Virus record (IMG/VR): IMGVR_UViG_3300042868_002708
Coordinates: 1-40,893 of that record
Strand: one strand, 5' to 3'
Origin: a virus
DNA: 40,893 bases
Position 1 is the first letter of the stretch. Every line of letters begins with the position of its first letter. Below the pieces are notes generated by a model, which saw nothing but the letters and a program-made list of their open reading frames with translations, ran no database searches and was not told the origin of the DNA. Of this stretch, positions 1,552 to 35,223 are shown one piece after another. Position numbers and translations under genes: made by a program.

Positions 1552-1804
1552 CAAGATTTAGCATATCCTCGTCTATTAAAATCGTTGTGGCATCAGCAAA
1601 TTTCATAGCCAATGCACCAATAGTACCTATAATTAAAAGTCTAGTGTTATGACTGGTACTAGCATCTTGCCAAGTATCGTCATCTCTCACAAGTCCGTTA
1701 ATTATATCCACAACATTTTCACTCTCTTCAACTGCTTCAACTACTTCCCTCTTAAATGCGCTGTTGATGAGTTCTTCAATACGATACTCGTTACTATCAG
1801 GCAA
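1520..1804 (-). CDS. Hypothetical acidic protein downstream of whiB
   Basis: The product is 94 residues, acidic throughout, with a hydrophobic helix 'LLIIGTIGALAMKFA' in the middle and a Glu-rich C terminus. I place the start at the TTG at 1804, because a strong GGAGAGGAGAC site sits five bases upstream inside the end of whiB. A frame-open ATG at 1858 lies deeper inside whiB. The start overlaps the whiB stop (GTTGCCTGA), so the two are probably co-translated. Family not recognised. Confidence 0.6.
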   Translation of the reverse strand: MPDSNEYRIEELINSAFKREVVEAVEESENVVDIINGLVRDDDTWQDASTSHNTRLLIIGTIGALAMKFADATTILIDEDMLNLDEVEEEEGKE

Positions 1805-2132
1805 CCTCGTCTCCTCTCCTATTCCAAGATGTAAAAGCATCTCGTTGCGCTGTTTCAAATATTTCTGGGACTATGCCTAACTCTTTACGCGCTCGTTTCC
1901 TCTCTGTATAGGTAGTTCCTCCCCACACTCCACGAACATCAACGTGTAAAGCATACTCATAACATTGTCTTAAGACAGGACAATCTTGACAGTACGCCTT
2001 TTGCTCTGGCGCTATCTCTTCTCTTCTCCTATTTGAACCATAATTAAAGAACCAATCAGGGTCAGGGTGAGATAAACATTTCGCTGTCTCAAAGTATGGC
2101 GTTATATGGCGAGTACTGATTGGTTTTGCCAC
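1797..2132 (-). CDS. whiB: WhiB-family iron-sulfur transcription regulator
   Basis: This 111-residue protein has the full WhiB signature. Cysteines at 19, 48, 51 and 57 (C-x28-C-x2-C-x5-C) bind a 4Fe-4S cluster, 'GVWGG' lies at 68-72, and the basic 'TERKRARKEL' follows. Known WhiB proteins act with the principal sigma factor of Actinobacteria and can sense redox or nitric oxide. Phage copies such as TM4 WhiB can repress host whiB genes and affect superinfection. The GTG start follows GGAGATAAC and lies inside the upstream gene. It is the firmest evidence here for an actinobacterial host. A GTCTTAAGAC palindrome lies within the gene at 1967, reading Val-Leu-Arg. Confidence 0.93.
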   Translation of the reverse strand: MAKPISTRHITPYFETAKCLSHPDPDWFFNYGSNRRREEIAPEQKAYCQDCPVLRQCYEYALHVDVRGVWGGTTYTERKRARKELGIVPEIFETAQRDAFTSWNRRGDEVA

Positions 2133-9255: not shown

Positions 9256-11001
9256 GTGGCTCTTAATATAACACAAATAGCAACAAAGGTAGAAGCGCTT
9301 AAACGCCGCAACGCTAGTCGCGATGCTCGTATGGGTGACGTTCTAGAAGTACGCAGGGGCAACCTTGTAAACGTATTTCCAGAAATGTTTCCTGAAGGTG
9401 CAACCAAGGCTATGATTGCAAACTTCGTTGACGTAGCAGCAAGAGACGTTTCCGAAGTACTAGCACCACTACCTTCTTTTAACTGTACAACAACTAATAC
9501 TAATTCTGACCGTGCTAAAAAATCAGCAGACATCAGAACCCTTATTGTTAATAACTATGTTCAACATTCACGTCTACAAACTCAAATGTACACAGGTGCT
9601 GACTGGTACGGTACCTATGGCTTCCTACCTATTGTTATTGAAGCAGACTTTGAAAACAATCTTCCACGTATACGTGTAGAAAACCCTATTGGTTCATATC
9701 CTGAATTTGATAGATATGGCAAAGTTGTTTCATTTACTAAACGTTATGTTAAAACTATTGCTGAACTCATTACAGAGTTTCCAGAATTTGAAAGAGAAAT
9801 CCTTAACGGATATAGAATGGATGAGGTTGACCTTTATTCCGAATTAGAAATGGTTCGTTATGAAGATAGAAACGTTATCCTTTTATATTTACCTACTAGA
9901 GGTAATTTAGTTTTAACCAGTACTGATAACCCAATGGGTGAAGTAATGGTTCGCGTTGCTATGCGCCCAGGAATTGACAATGAACCAAGAGGTCAATTTG
10001 ATGATGTTCTTTGGGTTCAGATAGCACGCGCAAGATTTGCACAGTTAGCAATGGATGCAGCAGAGAAATCTATTAATGCTCCATTAGCAGTTCCGAATGA
10101 CGTACAAGAATTCGCCTTTGGTCCAGACGCTGTGTTAAGAACTGCTCAACCGCAGAACATTCGCCGTGTAGGCTTAGAGGTTCCACCTGCTGCGTTTACT
10201 GAAGCAGAATTATTACAAAGAGAAATGCGTCTTGGCGCACGTTATCCTGAAGGACGCTCTGGTGTTATTAATGCCAGCGTTGTAACAGGACAAGGTGTAC
10301 AAGCCTTATTAGGCGCATTTGATACCCAGGTTAAAACTGGTCAACAAATTTTGTCAGACGTATTTGAAGACGTAATTGAATTATGTCTTAAGATGGACGA
10401 AAGATTATTTGCAGGTGAAAAGAAAGTTGCAGCCACATCTGGTGGTGCAAGATTTGAATTAAGTTATGACCCAGGTAGAGATATTCGTGGGGACTACACA
10501 GTTCAAGTTCGTTATGGTTTGATGTCAGGACTTGACCCAAGCCGTGCATTAATCTTCTCATTACAAGCATTAGGTGCAGATTTAGTATCAAGAGATTTCG
10601 TAATGCGCGAACTACCTTGGTCAATGAACGTAGGCGGAGAACAACAATCAATTGATGTTCAACGTATGCGTGATAACTTAAACGCATCAGTTGCTTCACT
10701 AGCACAAGCAATACCACAATTCGCAGCACAGGGACAAGACCCAAGTCAACTTGTTAATAACATCGCTGAGGTAATAAAGGAAAGACAAAAAGGTACAAAC
10801 ATCGAAGATGCTGTACAAAAAGTCTTTGCTCCAGAACCAGCCCCACAAGTTCCCCCTGCTGAGATGACTGCTCCTGGCGAGCAACCTGTCCCTGTTGCAC
10901 CAGTTGAAGCGCCTCCAGGGGGTCCTTCTCCAACAGCACCAGAGCAAGCGTTGCAAATGCAAGGACAAATGGATATTCAAGCATTACTAGGACAATTATA
11001 A
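9256..11001 (+). CDS. Portal protein
   Basis: The 581-residue protein lies directly after terL, as portals do. It has portal-like segments: 'GADWYGTYGFLPIVIEAD', 'RVENPIGSYPEFDRYGKV', and a helical 'GQGVQALLGAFDTQVKTG' leading to a long C-terminal helical region. The last 60 residues are Pro/Gln-rich. It should form the dodecameric ring through which DNA enters the capsid. The start is GTG with AAGGAAATTA upstream. The assignment rests on position, length and these segments. Confidence 0.85.
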   Translation: MALNITQIATKVEALKRRNASRDARMGDVLEVRRGNLVNVFPEMFPEGATKAMIANFVDVAARDVSEVLAPLPSFNCTTTNTNSDRAKKSADIRTLIVNNYVQHSRLQTQMYTGADWYGTYGFLPIVIEADFENNLPRIRVENPIGSYPEFDRYGKVVSFTKRYVKTIAELITEFPEFEREILNGYRMDEVDLYSELEMVRYEDRNVILLYLPTRGNLVLTSTDNPMGEVMVRVAMRPGIDNEPRGQFDDVLWVQIARARFAQLAMDAAEKSINAPLAVPNDVQEFAFGPDAVLRTAQPQNIRRVGLEVPPAAFTEAELLQREMRLGARYPEGRSGVINASVVTGQGVQALLGAFDTQVKTGQQILSDVFEDVIELCLKMDERLFAGEKKVAATSGGARFELSYDPGRDIRGDYTVQVRYGLMSGLDPSRALIFSLQALGADLVSRDFVMRELPWSMNVGGEQQSIDVQRMRDNLNASVASLAQAIPQFAAQGQDPSQLVNNIAEVIKERQKGTNIEDAVQKVFAPEPAPQVPPAEMTAPGEQPVPVAPVEAPPGGPSPTAPEQALQMQGQMDIQALLGQL

Positions 11002-11016
11002 ATTTAAGGAATCTAA

Positions 11017-11433
11017 ATGGCTAACGAAGTAGTCTCAGGCGTAGGTAGAAACGCCAAACGTACTGATAGAAATATTTCTAGCCGTACAACTCAGCCTATT
11101 CGTGAAATGAAATCACAAAAGTACGGCGAAGGTAAAGCATTACTAGAACAACAAAGAATAAGCCCTATGGCTGGAAGTGTTAAAACTCCTAAGATTGAAA
11201 CAGCAAGTGCTGCTCCAAGAACTCCTGTTGTTCCATTAACTGCTGATACACAATACCCTGACCAACCTGCTGAAGTAGGTTTACCATTTGGCGAAGGACC
11301 AGGACCAGAAATCTTTGGTAACCTTAATCCAGAACCAGAAACATTAACAGATATTTTAGGACGTATGGTTAATGCTGATTCTTCAGGAGAAGTAAAAGCA
11401 ATTTACGAAAACGCTTTATTACAAGGACAGTAA
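11017..11433 (+). CDS. Hypothetical virion-associated protein (138 aa)
   Basis: The basic N-terminal half ('GRNAKRTDRNISSRTTQPIR') and a Pro/Glu-rich, probably disordered middle precede a C-terminal helix. The gene lies between the portal and giant-protein genes. Its stop overlaps the ATG of the giant gene by one base (TAATG), indicating co-translation. It may be a portal- or internal-protein partner; no family recognised. Confidence 0.6.
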   Translation: MANEVVSGVGRNAKRTDRNISSRTTQPIREMKSQKYGEGKALLEQQRISPMAGSVKTPKIETASAAPRTPVVPLTADTQYPDQPAEVGLPFGEGPGPEIFGNLNPEPETLTDILGRMVNADSSGEVKAIYENALLQGQ

Positions 11434-14400
11434 TGGCTGATAATAAAGAAATACAAGATTATTCAGCAGAACTGTACAAAACTGTAACTAAGTTTACCCC
11501 TACCCCTTCTCAAAGTGCTGAACTTAATGGTTGGGCTGGTATTCAAAATGTTAATCAACGTTTATACAGTTTTAACGACCCTATTTTAGCAAGTAAAGAA
11601 TTTAACAAACTTGATAAAAACATTCAAGACATTATCGCTCAACAGAATCCTAATGCACCCTTTTTACCTCAACCAGAAAAAAAAGGTTTCATTAAGCAAT
11701 CATTAGAAGGTTTAAGAAGTTACGCTAACTTAATTACTGGCGTATATCGTGGTGCTAAGTTTGCACAACAAGAAAAGATTTCATTCTCTAAAGCCTGGGA
11801 TATGACAAAGGGCAACGGAGAAGCATTTTTTGATAGGGACCGTGTACAAAAAGTTGATGCTTTTTATTCCAAGGGTGTTGCTAAAGTTGCCAAAATGGCA
11901 TCTATGGGCAAAAGTTCTGGAGAAATTTTAGCCAATATTAATATGGCTGATGCTGCAGAAGTGAAAGCATACCAAGACTACCTTGATGTTGAAAATAATA
12001 AGACAATGCAACAGGCTCTTGGCGATTACAATATGGCTAAGATTTCTCTTGGTAGAGATATTGCTTATGACATCTTTGGTCTTAGAGTTAAACCAGGCGA
12101 ATACGGAACTGCTAAACGTAAAGCCTTTGGTGTTGTATCTGCTGTTGGTGATTTAGCAAACAATATTATATTTGACCCACTAACTTATGTTGCTCTTCCT
12201 TTCCAAGTAGCAAAGATTGGTGCACTAGGGGTAACTCGTGCAGCAACACTTGGTGGTTTAGGAAGAACCATTACAGGCGAAGCAGCCTTAAGTGCAAAGA
12301 TTTCAGATGCTTTTACTCATCCATTATTTGGAAAAGCAGTAACTAGATTTTACGATAACATTGGTGTTCAAGTAGAGCGTCTTGCTAAGGGAACAGAAGA
12401 AGAAGCAAACCAGGCTTTCGGTATTATCAATAGACAATTTGGCAAAGACATAAGACCTGATGTAGTTCAGGCTATGGTTAAAGCAAAAGTATTCAATGCT
12501 GATGCTGCTAAGAAGTTTTTTCAAGATGCAGAAAACTTTAGTTTACTTACTAACGGTAAAAAAGTATTAGGTAAAGATGTTATTCCTACCTATAGCATTT
12601 TTCGTGGATATAAAAACGAGATTAAAAATGCTATGCTTAGAACAACAGGGATTAGCACAACTAAAAAAGGTGCCGTTACTGCAGGAATAACTAGCGAAAC
12701 ATTATTAAAAACTATTGCTAGACCAGATTTTCTTCAAGATAAAGTAGCGCAAGAACAATTAACTGCAGCAATTAAAGATTCTGCTAGCAAAGCAAGTAGA
12801 TTTGCACGCTTTATTGAGATAGCACCTAGTGCAAAGACTATTAAAATTGCTAGATACATTGGTCCAGACGGCAAAGAAATAGACGAAGGTTTAAAATCCC
12901 TTAAAGATGTTATATCTTTAGGTCGTATTGCTGGTATGTCTCGTCCAGATGCTGACGAATTAGGTAGATTATGGACAACTGCTAGCGTTGCTCAACGTAG
13001 AAATATTCATAAAGGTTTAGTATTCGCAATATCTGATGAACTTGGATTATTCCAAGGTATGGATAGTGCTAGAATAATGAATAAACTTGACAAAATTGCA
13101 GGAACTCAAGAATACGCATTAGAACAAAACATAGATGCTGCATTATACAAAGCGATGCCAGAAGATATGCGTAAATTTCTTGATGATGCTTACAAATCTA
13201 CTGGTGGCGTATTAAAAACTATTAAAAGTACAGAAAGACCAATTACTTTTAACCCTGGAAAGTTAGGTTCTGATAGGGCTGCTGCAGCGATGGAGCATCA
13301 ACTATCTTTTGAACTAAACACTCCAGACCTTCGTGCTATTCGTTCCGAAGTTTACAGTGCTAGAGGGGCTAAGATTCGCTCCCTTGGACAAGTATTTAAC
13401 AATAAGTATGCTGATGCAATTGTAAGTACCTGGGCTTTCTTAACACTTGTTCCACGTTTAGGTATTCGTTCTGCTATTGAAGAAATAGGTGTATTTGGTT
13501 TAATTGCTACGCCTAAAACATTAGTTAATTTAATACGTTATGGTTATCCAACTAGCCGTGCTGGAAGAATAGTTAAAGATTCTGATGCTAAGTTTTTTGA
13601 TAGCAAAGGCGTTGGTGGTCCTACTCGTGTTTACTATGCTATGTTTAAACCAAATCTTACTAAAGAGATTAAAGAAAGCATTGATAAAGATTCAAGTATA
13701 GAAAACGTAGCACTCCAAACCAATGTTGCTATACAAAAAGGTAGATTTGGATTTAATCGTCCTTTAGACCAGCAATTTACTAAAGATACTGAAGATTTAG
13801 TTAGATTTGGATATGATTCTACTGGCTATAAAGAAGCAACTATGTCAGTTACAGCATCAACAGATATTAGTGGTGCTGCTGCCAAGGGATATGGCGCTGG
13901 AGCAGTTGTAATACCAGAACAAGGTCCTTCTTTAGCCTTTAGTATGAATAGAAAAAAGTTTGAAAAAGAATTTACTTCAGAAGGTCCTGCTGTAGAAATT
14001 AAACTACAAGACCAACCAGATGCTTACTATATGGCTCTTGGTGTTGAAATGTTTAAGCGAGCAGGAGTAGCAGGTAACACATCTAAACTTGCAATTAAAT
14101 ACATTGATAACCCTAAAAAGGCTATTGAAGAAATACGTAAAGAATTAGATAAAAATACAACTTTGGCAAGCGCATTTACCAATAACGTAGATTCTAATGT
14201 TACCAATAGTCAGTTAGCATCATCTATTTATTTTGCTACTCGTCAAACCTTTACTAATGCAAAAGGTGAAGTTAACCCTGATTTAGTTAAACTTGTTTAC
14301 ACTAGAGGTAAAGACAAAAACGGTAAGATAGTTGATAACTGGACTCCAGATATTGATATGGAAAAATTGCGTTTGATGAAAGGCAAAGACCTTCCTATTA

Positions 14401-16259
14401 CTGTCTTAAGTCAAAAGTGGATTCCTATTGCTGAAAATCAAGGTGGATTGATTGATGCTATAAATAGAAGAGGCTATGCCTGGATGGACCGTCAAATATC
14501 CACAATGACCAGAGAGCCTATCTTTACTGCTAACTACCATACTTATCGTAAAGAATATAGAAACCTAGAAAACATAAAGCGCAGCACATTAATTAAAAAT
14601 GGGATGAGTCCAGAGGCTGCAGATAAAGTTGCCAGAAAGTACGCTAGTGATTTAGCAACGGATGCAGCAGGTAAGCGTACATTAGATTTTGTCGATAATC
14701 CATTAATTAGAACTAACTTAGCATTTGGATTACGTAACTTTGCTCGTTTCTATCGTGCAACAGAAGACTTCTGGAGACGTGCTTACAGACTAGGCACTAC
14801 CCAAACAGATGCTATTATTCGTTTAAGATTAGCAACTCAAGGATTAGAACACTCAGGCTTTGTTTATGAAGATGATGAAGGCGAATTATACTTTGTATTT
14901 CCTGGTGATGATATAATTTATAATGCAGTATCTATAGCACATAGATTTATAGATGGTAATTCAAATCTTAAATTGCCACAATCATTACAATTTAGTGGTA
15001 AAGTTAAATTCTTATCACCGTCATTAGACCCACAATCAGCAATCCCTACATTTTCAGGTCCACTTGCTGGTATTTCAATGGTTGTTCTACAACAACACGC
15101 ACCTAACTTTTGGGGCATTAGAGATAGATTACTTGGTGTAACTCTTGGTGAAATGAGCAAGGACGCAACATATAAAGATGTTATTCTTCCTCCAGTTGCT
15201 AAACGTATTATGTCATTTATGTCACCTAATGATGTTAACGGTGAAATGGCTTCTGCTCAAAGACAAGCCTATGCTTACCTTGTTGCAAATGGTGAGGGCT
15301 TAGATATAAATGCCACACCTGAAGAAAAACTGAAATTTCAAGAAAACTTAGAAGCATTAGCATCTAACATATTAACTACTAGATTCTTTTTAGGTTTAGT
15401 ATCTCCAGTTGCATTAAGTGCATCTGCAGGTAAAGACGTTAGCGCTACATTAAAAGACTTAGGGAATGTTGATTTTAGGTCTGAGTTTTATGAAACTGTT
15501 CAAGAATTAACTTTACAAGGTTCAACAGACCCTTTTGGTGAAGCCAATATGAGATGGGCTAAGGCTAAACCAGGTGTACTTGCTTACACAATAGCACAAA
15601 GTGAAAGAAGTAGAGTTTTAAGTATTCGTCAAACTAATGATGCTATTGCTTGGTTAAAAAAGAATGAATCATTAGTTAATAAGTATCCAGAAGGTTCTGC
15701 TTTTTTTGTACCTAATAGTGGTGAATTTGATATTGCTGAATCTAAGTTTTTTCAAAGAGAAGGCTACACTGATAAGATTCCAGTAGAAGATTTTATAACT
15801 AAAGTTACTGCTCAGGAACAATTAAATGAATACTACACTAAACGTGATGAGTGGGATTCAAAAATTGAAAACGCACCTGAAAGTATTCGTTCAATTATTC
15901 GTCAGCAAAAAACTTTAGATATGCAAGAGTTTACTAAAGGTAAATACTACTTACAAAAAGCATTAGAAAATTATGGAAGTGCTGCAGATACTACTGCTGC
16001 TTGGGAAGAACTTGTTAGAATGATTGACAATAATGATGCTCCTAAAACTCCAAATGCACAAAAAGTTATAGATATAGTTAATCTTGTTCAAGAAGCAAAC
16101 AACGTTACAGCAATGATGTTTGATGGAACTGTAGATGCTTCTCAGCGTAGAAGTTTGATACGTAATAACGCTATGCAACAAGCATTAGAGATTGCTGCAA
16201 ACGATGCAGGTCTTATAAGAATCATTAATACTGTTGTTAAGAAACAATTAGGAGTTTAA
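11433..16259 (+). CDS. Giant virion protein (1608 aa), candidate internal/ejection protein
   Basis: At 4.8 kb this is the largest gene, about 12% of the genome. The product is mostly helical, with a hydrophobic stretch near residues 240-270 ('VSAVGDLANNIIFDPLTYVA'), and a segment around 1090-1130 rich in Arg and aromatics ('LRNFARFYRATEDFWRRAYR'). I see no peptidase, transglycosylase or polymerase motif. Its place between portal and scaffold or capsid genes, without tape-measure repeats, suggests a protein packed inside the head and ejected with DNA, as in podoviruses. The class of 'large polyvalent' phage proteins is an alternative. Function inferred from size and position only. Confidence 0.65.
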   Translation: MADNKEIQDYSAELYKTVTKFTPTPSQSAELNGWAGIQNVNQRLYSFNDPILASKEFNKLDKNIQDIIAQQNPNAPFLPQPEKKGFIKQSLEGLRSYANLITGVYRGAKFAQQEKISFSKAWDMTKGNGEAFFDRDRVQKVDAFYSKGVAKVAKMASMGKSSGEILANINMADAAEVKAYQDYLDVENNKTMQQALGDYNMAKISLGRDIAYDIFGLRVKPGEYGTAKRKAFGVVSAVGDLANNIIFDPLTYVALPFQVAKIGALGVTRAATLGGLGRTITGEAALSAKISDAFTHPLFGKAVTRFYDNIGVQVERLAKGTEEEANQAFGIINRQFGKDIRPDVVQAMVKAKVFNADAAKKFFQDAENFSLLTNGKKVLGKDVIPTYSIFRGYKNEIKNAMLRTTGISTTKKGAVTAGITSETLLKTIARPDFLQDKVAQEQLTAAIKDSASKASRFARFIEIAPSAKTIKIARYIGPDGKEIDEGLKSLKDVISLGRIAGMSRPDADELGRLWTTASVAQRRNIHKGLVFAISDELGLFQGMDSARIMNKLDKIAGTQEYALEQNIDAALYKAMPEDMRKFLDDAYKSTGGVLKTIKSTERPITFNPGKLGSDRAAAAMEHQLSFELNTPDLRAIRSEVYSARGAKIRSLGQVFNNKYADAIVSTWAFLTLVPRLGIRSAIEEIGVFGLIATPKTLVNLIRYGYPTSRAGRIVKDSDAKFFDSKGVGGPTRVYYAMFKPNLTKEIKESIDKDSSIENVALQTNVAIQKGRFGFNRPLDQQFTKDTEDLVRFGYDSTGYKEATMSVTASTDISGAAAKGYGAGAVVIPEQGPSLAFSMNRKKFEKEFTSEGPAVEIKLQDQPDAYYMALGVEMFKRAGVAGNTSKLAIKYIDNPKKAIEEIRKELDKNTTLASAFTNNVDSNVTNSQLASSIYFATRQTFTNAKGEVNPDLVKLVYTRGKDKNGKIVDNWTPDIDMEKLRLMKGKDLPITVLSQKWIPIAENQGGLIDAINRRGYAWMDRQISTMTREPIFTANYHTYRKEYRNLENIKRSTLIKNGMSPEAADKVARKYASDLATDAAGKRTLDFVDNPLIRTNLAFGLRNFARFYRATEDFWRRAYRLGTTQTDAIIRLRLATQGLEHSGFVYEDDEGELYFVFPGDDIIYNAVSIAHRFIDGNSNLKLPQSLQFSGKVKFLSPSLDPQSAIPTFSGPLAGISMVVLQQHAPNFWGIRDRLLGVTLGEMSKDATYKDVILPPVAKRIMSFMSPNDVNGEMASAQRQAYAYLVANGEGLDINATPEEKLKFQENLEALASNILTTRFFLGLVSPVALSASAGKDVSATLKDLGNVDFRSEFYETVQELTLQGSTDPFGEANMRWAKAKPGVLAYTIAQSERSRVLSIRQTNDAIAWLKKNESLVNKYPEGSAFFVPNSGEFDIAESKFFQREGYTDKIPVEDFITKVTAQEQLNEYYTKRDEWDSKIENAPESIRSIIRQQKTLDMQEFTKGKYYLQKALENYGSAADTTAAWEELVRMIDNNDAPKTPNAQKVIDIVNLVQEANNVTAMMFDGTVDASQRRSLIRNNAMQQALEIAANDAGLIRIINTVVKKQLGV

Positions 16260-32436: not shown

Positions 32437-32817
32437 TTGTACATCCAATTAAAAGATGACAAAGTAAAGCAGTCCTTTAAGCCTGCTGTTTGGACACCTA
32501 TGTTGCTCAATGGTCAAGATGCTATTGACCCAACAAAAGAAGGTAATTGTTTTTGGGAAGCCCAACTACATTTAACTTTACCTAAAACAGGTAGACCAAC
32601 ATATGTGAAAATGAATTACTCAAGAGATTACAAAGGTAAGAATGACACTACTGGCACTAACACTTATGCTGTGCCAGCAGATGTTACCTCTGTTCAGTTC
32701 ACTTTATCTTGGTTCTTTAAAGCAAAACCTGGTACACCTATTTCTTGTATGGTTTACCACAACGGAAAATCAGATATAGTTTCAGAGATTAGACAATTTA
32801 AAGGAATGATACTCTAA
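32437..32817 (+). CDS. Beta-rich lysis-cassette protein (126 aa)
   Basis: TTG start four bases after the holin stop; a weak GGCGGCAAG lies upstream. The product looks like a beta-sandwich ('FWEAQLHLTLPKTGRPTYVK' and 'VTSVQFTLSWFFKAKPGTP'). It overlaps the M23 gene by one base (TAATG). A wall- or carbohydrate-binding partner of the endolysin is an attractive guess, but no family is recognised. Confidence 0.6.
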   Translation: MYIQLKDDKVKQSFKPAVWTPMLLNGQDAIDPTKEGNCFWEAQLHLTLPKTGRPTYVKMNYSRDYKGKNDTTGTNTYAVPADVTSVQFTLSWFFKAKPGTPISCMVYHNGKSDIVSEIRQFKGMIL

Positions 32818-33212
32818 TGGCATCACCTATTAAAGATGGAAAGATTACAACTGCCTACAAAAAACTAGGTAAAATGTGGTCAAAAGGTTATCACACTGGT
32901 GTTGACTATGCTTGCAAAACTGGCACAGATATTCTTGCTGTTGCTGATGGCACAGTAACCAACGCTAATTGGGGTAAATCCTACGGTACACAAATTGTAC
33001 AAAAGATTGACGGTCAAAATGTTTGGGTTATCTACGCACACTTATCTAAATCATTAGTTAAGGCTGGCGATAAAGTAACTAAGGGACAAATGATAGCAGA
33101 ATCAGGTAACACTGGTAACTCTTCAGGTCCTCATCTACATTTTGAGGCAAGAGATAACGTTAGATGGTCTGCTGGTAAAGATGTAGACCCAAAGGATATT
33201 CTCGCTATTTAG
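32817..33212 (+). CDS. M23 family peptidoglycan endopeptidase (endolysin)
   Basis: The 131-residue protein is essentially one LytM/M23 domain. 'HTGVDYA' gives the zinc ligands His26 and Asp30, and 'GPHLHFEAR' gives His106 and His108; His75 in 'YAHLS' is the additional active-site histidine. It should cut peptide cross-bridges in the host wall. No signal peptide is seen, so export depends on the holin. It is the last gene of the late operon and ends eight bases inside the convergent proteasome-like gene. Confidence 0.9.
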   Translation: MASPIKDGKITTAYKKLGKMWSKGYHTGVDYACKTGTDILAVADGTVTNANWGKSYGTQIVQKIDGQNVWVIYAHLSKSLVKAGDKVTKGQMIAESGNTGNSSGPHLHFEARDNVRWSAGKDVDPKDILAI

Positions 33213-33738
33213 TTTGTTTATGTGTAATAAAGGGTGGTGCAGTGAAGACATTGTTCTTCGCTGCAATACTCATAGCCTGCTTCCAAGAAGCACCTGCGTG
33301 TAAAGCACCTATGGCATAAGATGCCCCACTACCTATGCCATAGATACCATCGTCTCTCATCAGCACAGATAACGTATCATCTATTTCGTAGATGATTCCG
33401 TTTAATGCTATGAGAAAAATAAAGTCTTGGTCATCTGATTCTTTGTCTGGTTGATAACCATTAACAGATAAAGTAAATCTTAATGATGGTGCAATTGTTT
33501 CAACCATATAATGATATGGGTCTTTGGTTGCCACTGGTGTTAATGATGGTGGTTTCCAAATGTGTTGTAAAATATCGCAAGGCAATGTTAATCCTGCTCC
33601 TGCTATAAGAAATTTCCCACGCTTAGTTATCTTTGTAACTGTTGGGTGTGAGTAGGTTCTCCCTGAATCATCTGTGATTCGTGAGTCTGCTACAAGTAAA
33701 CAATGGTCTGGTTTTTGTATACCAATTATTGTTGTCAT
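33205..33738 (-). CDS. Proteasome/HslV-like Ntn hydrolase
   Basis: The 177-residue protein begins 'MTTIIGIQ'. Removing Met exposes Thr1, and counting from it Asp17 falls in 'VADSRIT' exactly as in proteasome beta subunits and HslV. A Lys at 35 stands near the usual Lys33, and 'YGIGSGASYAIGALHAG' gives the conserved Gly-Ser-Gly helix start. I chose the ATG at 33738 because it puts Thr next to Met; an in-frame start three codons earlier would bury it. Likely a threonine peptidase or self-assembling ring. Role could be degrading host or phage proteins. It overlaps the neighbouring glycosyltransferase gene. Confidence 0.8.
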   Translation of the reverse strand: MTTIIGIQKPDHCLLVADSRITDDSGRTYSHPTVTKITKRGKFLIAGAGLTLPCDILQHIWKPPSLTPVATKDPYHYMVETIAPSLRFTLSVNGYQPDKESDDQDFIFLIALNGIIYEIDDTLSVLMRDDGIYGIGSGASYAIGALHAGASWKQAMSIAAKNNVFTAPPFITHKQTK

Positions 33739-34319
33739 AGGTTCCACTTCTTTTCAAAGTATTCTTTATCTGCTTCTGTAAGTTTCATTAGGTCTTCGTT
33801 AATAGATGTTAAATGGTTTCCGTGTAAGTGTTCTACTTCTGCTGGAATGTAAACAACTTCACCTATCTCTTTTGCTTTCAATCTAATATCATCATCGCCA
33901 TACCACCATCTAAAGTTTTCATCTGCTCTAATGTTTGATTTAATATCAAGCACCCAACAGTAACCTGGTAGATGTCCTGAATATGGTAACGGATAACCAA
34001 GTGTACCTTTAAGTTCTTTCATACCATAAGCAATTTTATTTATAGGATTATTCTTCAGTCTTAAGTCATCATTTAATACAGCAATGTAATCTGCACCAAA
34101 GGTTCTGGCAATATCTATGCCACGATTCCACCATCTGTGGATGTTAACTGGGTCTAAATCCCAAACATTATTTACACCTTCTATTGGTTCTGATTCAACT
34201 GTATGCACAATTACAATTTTTTCAGGAGAGATTTGACTTTCATTAATTATATCTGCAAGGTATTGACGGCGTGTTCCAGTAGGAATGGTCAACCAAATGT
34301 CTAGATTATTATCTGTCAT
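33735..34319 (-). CDS. GT-A-type glycosyltransferase
   Basis: The 194-residue protein has 'RQYLADIINESQISPEKIVI' at the start of a nucleotide-binding fold, then 'YIAVLNDDLRLKNN' with a DxD-like NDD (about 99-101), and 'WWYGDDDIRLKAKEIG'. It resembles short GT2-type phage glycosyltransferases. It overlaps the downstream proteasome-like gene by four bases, and its 5' end overlaps the divergent secreted-protein gene. Target unknown; virion or surface glycosylation fits the presence of another glycosyltransferase at 22322. Confidence 0.75.
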   Translation of the reverse strand: MTDNNLDIWLTIPTGTRRQYLADIINESQISPEKIVIVHTVESEPIEGVNNVWDLDPVNIHRWWNRGIDIARTFGADYIAVLNDDLRLKNNPINKIAYGMKELKGTLGYPLPYSGHLPGYCWVLDIKSNIRADENFRWWYGDDDIRLKAKEIGEVVYIPAEVEHLHGNHLTSINEDLMKLTEADKEYFEKKWNL

Positions 34320-35223
34320 AACTATCTTTATCCTTACTACCCTGATTGCTCAACCATCATACTCTGATGATATAACAATCAACTTAGACTCTACCACACC
34401 TTATGTGGATATACCTGTAACTGTTAGTGAACCTGTTGATGCAACTATATCAACCACTACTGGTACTCCTCAAACTAATCCAGGGTTTATTGATTCTTGG
34501 ATTGAAGTTTGGCAAGACACTGTTCGCCTTGCATATAATGATGATGGTGCACACAGTGCTAGTAATGTGTTAGCATCTATCATTAATATTCCTTTACAAG
34601 TTGGTGAGTATTTTATTCGTGCAACATCTTATGCTTACATATGTTGCAACGCATATCCTACTGGTTCTTACTTACTATCTACTAATTTAGTAGTAGTTAG
34701 TCCAACCCCAACTCCGTCTTCATCACCGACAATCGATGAGCCAACTCCTGAGCCTTCTTTTCCTTCTCCGTCACCGTCTGATATTCCTTCTCCATCAGAA
34801 TCTCCAGAGGTTCCAGTTGTTCCAGTTCAAGAGCCATCCGAGCCAGACCCTGTAATTTTATTAGAGTCTTCAACGCCTGTGCCATCTCCCCTTCCAAGTG
34901 TTCAAGATACTTTAGAAGCAATTGTTGATTCGTCACCTAGCGTTTCACCTTCTTCTTTACCTTCTTTGCTGATACCTGAAGTTGAGCCAACTCTTTTGTC
35001 CATTGACGCAAATCAAACTCAGCCTTCAATTCTTGATAACCTAGTACCACAATTTCTTTCAGAATCAATCCAACAAATATCTGAAACCATAACTGCTGCA
35101 TTAGACACTGTTTCCAATCTTGGTTCCGAGTTCACACCCGAAGAACGTGAACAAGCCCAACAAGTAGTGTTGGGTGCTATAATTGTAACACAACTATCCA
35201 CATCTGCAAGGAGAATAAAATGA
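34297..35223 (+). CDS. Secreted Ser/Pro-rich protein with N-terminal beta domain
   Basis: The 308-residue product from the ATG at 34297 (AGGAA upstream; an alternative ATG at 34285 is crowded) has a signal peptide ('LLSVITIFILTTLIAQPSYS', residues 4-23). The beta domain that follows ('FIDSWIEVWQDTVRLAYNDD' then 'VGEYFIRATSYAY') resembles PPC-type domains. A Ser/Pro/Glu stalk spans about 150-220 and the C-terminal helices end in 'VVLGAIIVTQL'. It is probably exported to the host envelope. Surface modification or superinfection exclusion is my inference. Its start overlaps the divergent glycosyltransferase gene. Confidence 0.65.
   Translation: MSRLLSVITIFILTTLIAQPSYSDDITINLDSTTPYVDIPVTVSEPVDATISTTTGTPQTNPGFIDSWIEVWQDTVRLAYNDDGAHSASNVLASIINIPLQVGEYFIRATSYAYICCNAYPTGSYLLSTNLVVVSPTPTPSSSPTIDEPTPEPSFPSPSPSDIPSPSESPEVPVVPVQEPSEPDPVILLESSTPVPSPLPSVQDTLEAIVDSSPSVSPSSLPSLLIPEVEPTLLSIDANQTQPSILDNLVPQFLSESIQQISETITAALDTVSNLGSEFTPEEREQAQQVVLGAIIVTQLSTSARRIK

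Follow-up and report, generated by a model that had tools for sequence, protein, structure and literature searches.

An HslV/BPH-type, proteasome-like threonine hydrolase in a freshwater virus and its relatives

Introduction

Phage-borne homologues of the proteasome were described by Fuchs, Alva and Lupas in 2021, without a function being assigned to them (PMC8665760). The kind of protein treated here is therefore already known, from sequence surveys, and belongs to a functionally uncharacterised family; the literature searched held no study on what a proteasome homologue does in a phage. Two phage-carried types, AAH and PPH, are compact group I proteasome homologues without a C-terminal H5. 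PPH measures about 140 residues and has no H2, and the authors reported finding no AAH in phages specific to actinobacteria (PMC8665760). The betaproteobacteria proteasome homologue (BPH) is described with a long pore loop of acidic character and seems to lack an unfoldase, and connectase is a proteasome homologue turned monomeric ligase (PMC8665760).

Here we analyse a proteasome-like gene of a freshwater virus, on a 40,893-base virus record that is referred to, as a whole, as the window. What is new is the near-universal presence of this gene across a family of actinophages, some of them cultured, its position in the head operon of most of them, and its apparent relocation and exchange between lineages. 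Among its members are two phages in culture that infect Ca. Planktophila, an abundant genus of fresh waters (PMC10202952). Since the gene is single-copy, near-universal and, by sequence, catalytically intact in this family, the question of its function is open to experiment.

Results and Discussion

Gene, start codon and catalytic residues

The hydrolase gene lies at 33205..33738 on the minus strand, stop codon included, and encodes a protein of 177 aa opening with MTTIIGIQKPDHCLLVADSR. The full ORF around it extends over 33205-33747 (-), and the Met-Thr start is the ATG at 33736-33738. This start position is common to 167/167 related ORFs (141 ATG, 25 GTG and 1 TTG), Thr always comes next, and the residues upstream of it differ among them, which identifies the ATG as the right start. 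A longer GTG start at 33747 was rejected, as the relatives begin at the Met1 ATG/GTG with unrelated codons upstream. A Met preceding Thr is normally cleaved off by methionine aminopeptidase, so Thr should be residue 1 of a mature protein of 176 residues. Comparison of the start positions of the related ORFs revealed no propeptide.

Numbered from Thr1, the protein has Asp at 17, the catalytic Lys at 35, Gly48 and the motif G135-S136-G137; two residues are inserted ahead of the proteasome Lys33 position, which places the Lys at 35. The corresponding minus-strand codons are found at 33733..33735 (Thr1, the catalytic nucleophile after Met removal), 33685..33687 (Asp17), 33631..33633 (the Lys33 equivalent) and 33325..33333 (G-S-G, with the Ser129 equivalent). 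Thr1, Asp17 and the Lys occur without exception in 145/145 distinct relatives, whose identity reaches as low as ~27%; G-[S/T]-G is likewise present in all 145, and the oxyanion-position Gly is kept in 144. The initial annotation had named the Met-Thr start, an Asp17 counted from Thr1 and a nearby Lys, all of which recur in the relatives, and nothing in the conserved start position or in Thr1 places the Thr away from the processed N terminus. It had also put the GSG in a helix; the motif is real, but it stands just ahead of H3 (model residues 139-147) and outside the helix.

Against ten relatives, close ones, dN/dS was 0.05-0.14, with the upper values resting on near-saturated dS; these ratios show strong purifying selection on the gene. 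Combined with the invariant triad, they exclude chance or decay, and a pseudogene or chance ORF was rejected on these grounds.

The virus and its host

A WhiB-like regulator, a marker of an actinobacterial host, is encoded at 1797..2132 (-) (PF02467, E 3.8e-16, above the cut-off), and WhiB is present in 23/24 records of the window's phage family. The terminase TerL of the window is nearest to those of Planktophila phages and then to those of Streptomyces phages, while its major capsid protein (MCP) is 69% identical to that of ct2KA10. Considering WhiB and these TerL and MCP relatives, an actinobacterial host, as initially proposed, can be inferred with good support. The records named Planktophila phage are isolates on Ca. 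Planktophila LanE-43 (PMC10202952). The homologue in one of them, F5, is 41% identical to the hydrolase and goes unmentioned in the main text of the phage paper (PMC10202952).

Fold and family assignment

An AlphaFold2 model based on an alignment of 26 relatives (pLDDT 91, pTM 0.87) has the proteasome-type Ntn fold, with four alpha-beta-beta-alpha layers and helices H1-H4 forming both helix pairs; H2 covers residues 74-92. The top solved matches in Foldseek were BPH (5ovs, E 8e-10) and then HslV (E 9e-10). VIA-align gave BPH 5ovt a Z of 17.6 (162 residues, rmsd 2.7); HslV, beta subunits and Anbu came almost level with it, at 16-17. The profile of the 26 relatives retrieved BPH (4.5e-10) and HslV (~1e-7) ahead of 20S beta subunits. 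Residues 1-175 matched PHROG phrog_1040, 'peptidase HslV family', at E 1.3e-28. This family, whose name is an annotation, was also matched by every phage relative tested and includes Vibrio phage VpV262 and Planktophila phage F5; the match is full-length, and no family-level difference was found. Predicted viral structures hold many phage homologues, for example in VpV262 and Gordonia phages. PADLOC returned no match.

As a single sequence, the protein stays below the gathering cut-off of Pfam PF00227 (Proteasome; 20.7 bits against 22.4, E 3.6e-4), and it is the profile and fold comparisons that establish homology. It shares size, fold, Thr1/Asp17/Lys33 and GSG with HslV (ClpQ), but scores 19.2 bits with the HslV equivalog model TIGR03692, whose cut-off is 157.75, and has no HslU partner. 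With the 20S beta subunit (PrcB) it has superfamily and fold in common (VIA Z ~16); in contrast to that subunit, it lacks a propeptide and falls under all curated cut-offs, the archaeal beta subunit equivalog far below its own, and the NCBIfam bacterial model TIGR03690 was not among its matches. BPH (PDB 5ovs/5ovt/5ovu), the best solved match by profile and fold, shares the catalytic triad, the missing propeptide and an acidic loop after H2, but is only ~20-23% identical, and the hydrolase is phage-borne, in actinophages.

These results identify the protein as a threonine hydrolase of HslV/BPH type, related to the proteasome but by no test here a 20S beta subunit. The proteasome/HslV-type identity first suggested from the sequence is borne out by fold, profile matches and the invariant triad: the four-layer Ntn fold is present, with Foldseek and VIA-align in agreement, and the family comparison that had been proposed ranks BPH and HslV best.

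Like AAH and PPH, the hydrolase is a compact, phage-carried group I homologue without H5 (PMC8665760). PPH membership was rejected on length (176 mature residues) and on the presence of H2, both helices being present. AAH was compared through its published description; should the hydrolase subfamily prove to be AAH, the finding would touch on the failure, reported in 2021, to find AAH in any phage specific to actinobacteria (PMC8665760).

A further suggestion of the initial annotation was that a phage copy could replace, cap or compete with host proteasome subunits. Many actinobacteria have 20S proteasomes, and with actinobacterial hosts it is conceivable that phage subunits join, cap or poison the host 20S proteasome or another host protease; our literature search found no paper on proteasomes in Nanopelagicales. 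However, the protein is nearer to BPH and HslV than to 20S beta subunits, TIGR03690 is unmatched, and the same family is carried by Vibrio, Pantoea, Erwinia and Psychrobacter phages. Moreover, all catalytic residues are kept, none of which a cap or poison would need. Such a modification of host proteolysis is very improbable, and that suggestion was not supported.

Neighbourhood in the window

Immediately upstream on the same strand lies a glycosyltransferase-like gene (33735..34319, (-)), which is distantly matched by glycosyltransferases of Streptomyces phages (26% identity, E 5e-14) and no Pfam or PHROG match. Its stop and the hydrolase start overlap in an ATGA at 33735..33738 (-), suggesting that the two genes may be translationally coupled. 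On the other side, an M23-type peptidase gene, a probable lysin (32817..33212, (+)), runs towards the hydrolase gene and overlaps its end by 8 bp. The two genes stand tail to tail, in agreement with the initial description of an orientation against the lysis genes.

The ATGA overlap also bears on the possibility that the protein is a dedicated Ntn enzyme with a non-degradative role, acting on one partner as a specific peptidase, an amidase or a connectase-like protein ligase, perhaps together with the glycosyltransferase-like protein. Connectase is a precedent for a monomeric ligase (PMC8665760), but it has an S3/S4 helical insertion, which the hydrolase model lacks, and both helix pairs are present in the model. 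In addition, the glycosyltransferase neighbour is conserved only in the close relatives of the window. A non-degradative role is therefore quite unlikely in our judgement.

The glycosyltransferase-like gene is itself overlapped by a divergent gene (34285-35223, (+)) for a 312-aa, Pro/Ser-rich, secreted-looking protein with a signal-peptide-like start and a weak match to a DVUA0089-family model.

Distribution, relocation and allele exchange

Relatives were sampled as 21 near-full-length freshwater records chosen by MCP. Exactly one hydrolase copy was present in 20 of the 21, and none in G005. In 18/20 the gene immediately follows that of the portal and precedes those of a ~1600-1900-aa protein, the scaffold and the MCP. 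The copy of Planktophila phage F5 begins 16 bp after the stop codon of the portal gene and runs into the following gene. No hydrolase gene is present in Streptomyces phage Stella, whose TerL, portal and MCP are all homologues. The gene is near-universal yet not strictly essential, since the near-full-length G005 lacks it. In the window, the portal gene (9256..11001, (+)) is not followed by the hydrolase. The protein of the 1600-1900-aa type behind this portal, at 11433-16259, has no Pfam or PHROG match in its window version.

The position in most relatives points to late expression at the head stage and counts against proteolysis elsewhere in the infected cell. Under this interpretation the hydrolase would be a prohead protease, made with the head genes, that gets into the procapsid or works on it, either to remove scaffold or to trim proteins of the interior, as a proteasome-type counterpart of the ClpP-like head-maturation proteases of some phages; the scan of window proteins recognised no second candidate for a head protease. 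To our knowledge, a head protease of the proteasome/HslV type has not been described before. Several observations do not fit. The MCP lacks a cleavable delta domain, its N-terminal arm is unchanged in the gene-less G005, where the scaffold is homologous too, and Stella does without the gene. Hydrolase identity tracks neither the portal nor the large protein, and some copies lie outside the head genes, as detailed below. A head-associated protease is the main alternative to the function proposed below, possible but doubtful.

In the clade of the window, the hydrolase gene is on the opposite strand, among replication genes. There it adjoins the glycosyltransferase-like gene, or phosphoesterase and sigma-like genes. 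The description 'accessory island' thus applies to this clade only; across the phage family the gene is a near-universal single copy that usually belongs to the operon of head genes. Copies that have moved group together in a single clade (support 96/97, 96% of bootstraps; the remote G001 copy was absent from this tree), whereas by portal their phages fall in separate lineages. Because the copies group and the portals do not, the simplest account would be one relocation followed by transfer between phage lineages.

Exchange is also apparent where the gene has kept its place. In the pair G013/G009 the portals are 86% identical and the hydrolases 27%, and in the pair G007/G008 the hydrolases are 98% identical and the large proteins 14%. 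Divergent hydrolase versions are thus swapped in place, with portal and capsid conserved. The ~1600-1900-aa protein is also exchanged wholesale, as the 14% identity in G007/G008 comes with portals that are 91% identical. Specific co-evolution of the hydrolase with this protein was rejected, since their identities fail to track each other.

Homologues in Vibrio and Pantoea phages are likewise found outside the head genes, among RNR and PhoH genes in the former and, in a Pantoea phage, among thymidylate synthase and RNase H genes. In contigs of the DSL-LC01 type, whiB is near the hydrolase gene in 4/5, a neighbourhood that may be one inherited event. A further reading, which we regard as unlikely, is that of a core late gene whose product works on the head during assembly, on scaffold or on internal proteins, with alleles exchanged in place and with relocation and spread in one clade.

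Proposed function

Our preferred reading is that the hydrolase works as an unfoldase-independent protease in the infected cell, in host-directed or general proteolysis, to which we give about an even chance. The full catalytic set, the missing propeptide, the lack of an HslU-type ATPase and BPH as nearest solved relative suggest a ring-shaped protease without an unfoldase of its own. The window record yielded no AAA_2 match for an HslU-type unfoldase (positive controls, 14/14), and the AAA matches of the relatives fall in a ~264-aa frame that resembles the DnaB-like helicase of the window. Work independent of an unfoldase is suggested by the fact that no ATPase partner travels with the gene, together with the BPH-like acidic loop after H2. 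This loop has a median charge of -3; ~14% of same-length segments are equally acidic, which makes it only mildly unusual.

Judging from the related families, host methionine aminopeptidase would expose Thr1, the subunits would assemble into a chamber of BPH/HslV-like rings, and Thr1 with the Lys and Asp would cut peptides inside it. Either no dedicated unfoldase would be at work or a host chaperone might be borrowed, and the substrates could be unfolded or damaged proteins, or specific host or phage proteins, in the infected cell. The replication, nucleotide-metabolism and regulatory genes that neighbour the hydrolase in other phages favour such proteolysis in the infected cell. Allele swapping next to conserved capsid genes, relocation to the replication strand and the whiB and sigma neighbours speak for a proteolytic role that is host-directed or general rather than tied to one substrate in the capsid.

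Occurrence on larger contigs and in genome scans

A profile scan of genome contigs with one relative alignment gave no confirmed match. No further hydrolase match was obtained at E 1e-9 in 398 Pseudomonadota genomes beyond a single contig from a second profile scan of genome contigs, L352 (JAURLY010000091.1), assigned to a Gammaproteobacteria MAG. In four larger actinophage-like contigs (L083, L167, L168 and L352), whiB lies within ~1.3 kb of the hydrolase gene on the same strand. L352 carries, besides the hydrolase and WhiB genes, other phage genes like those of the window, and it is probably a misbinned actinophage contig.
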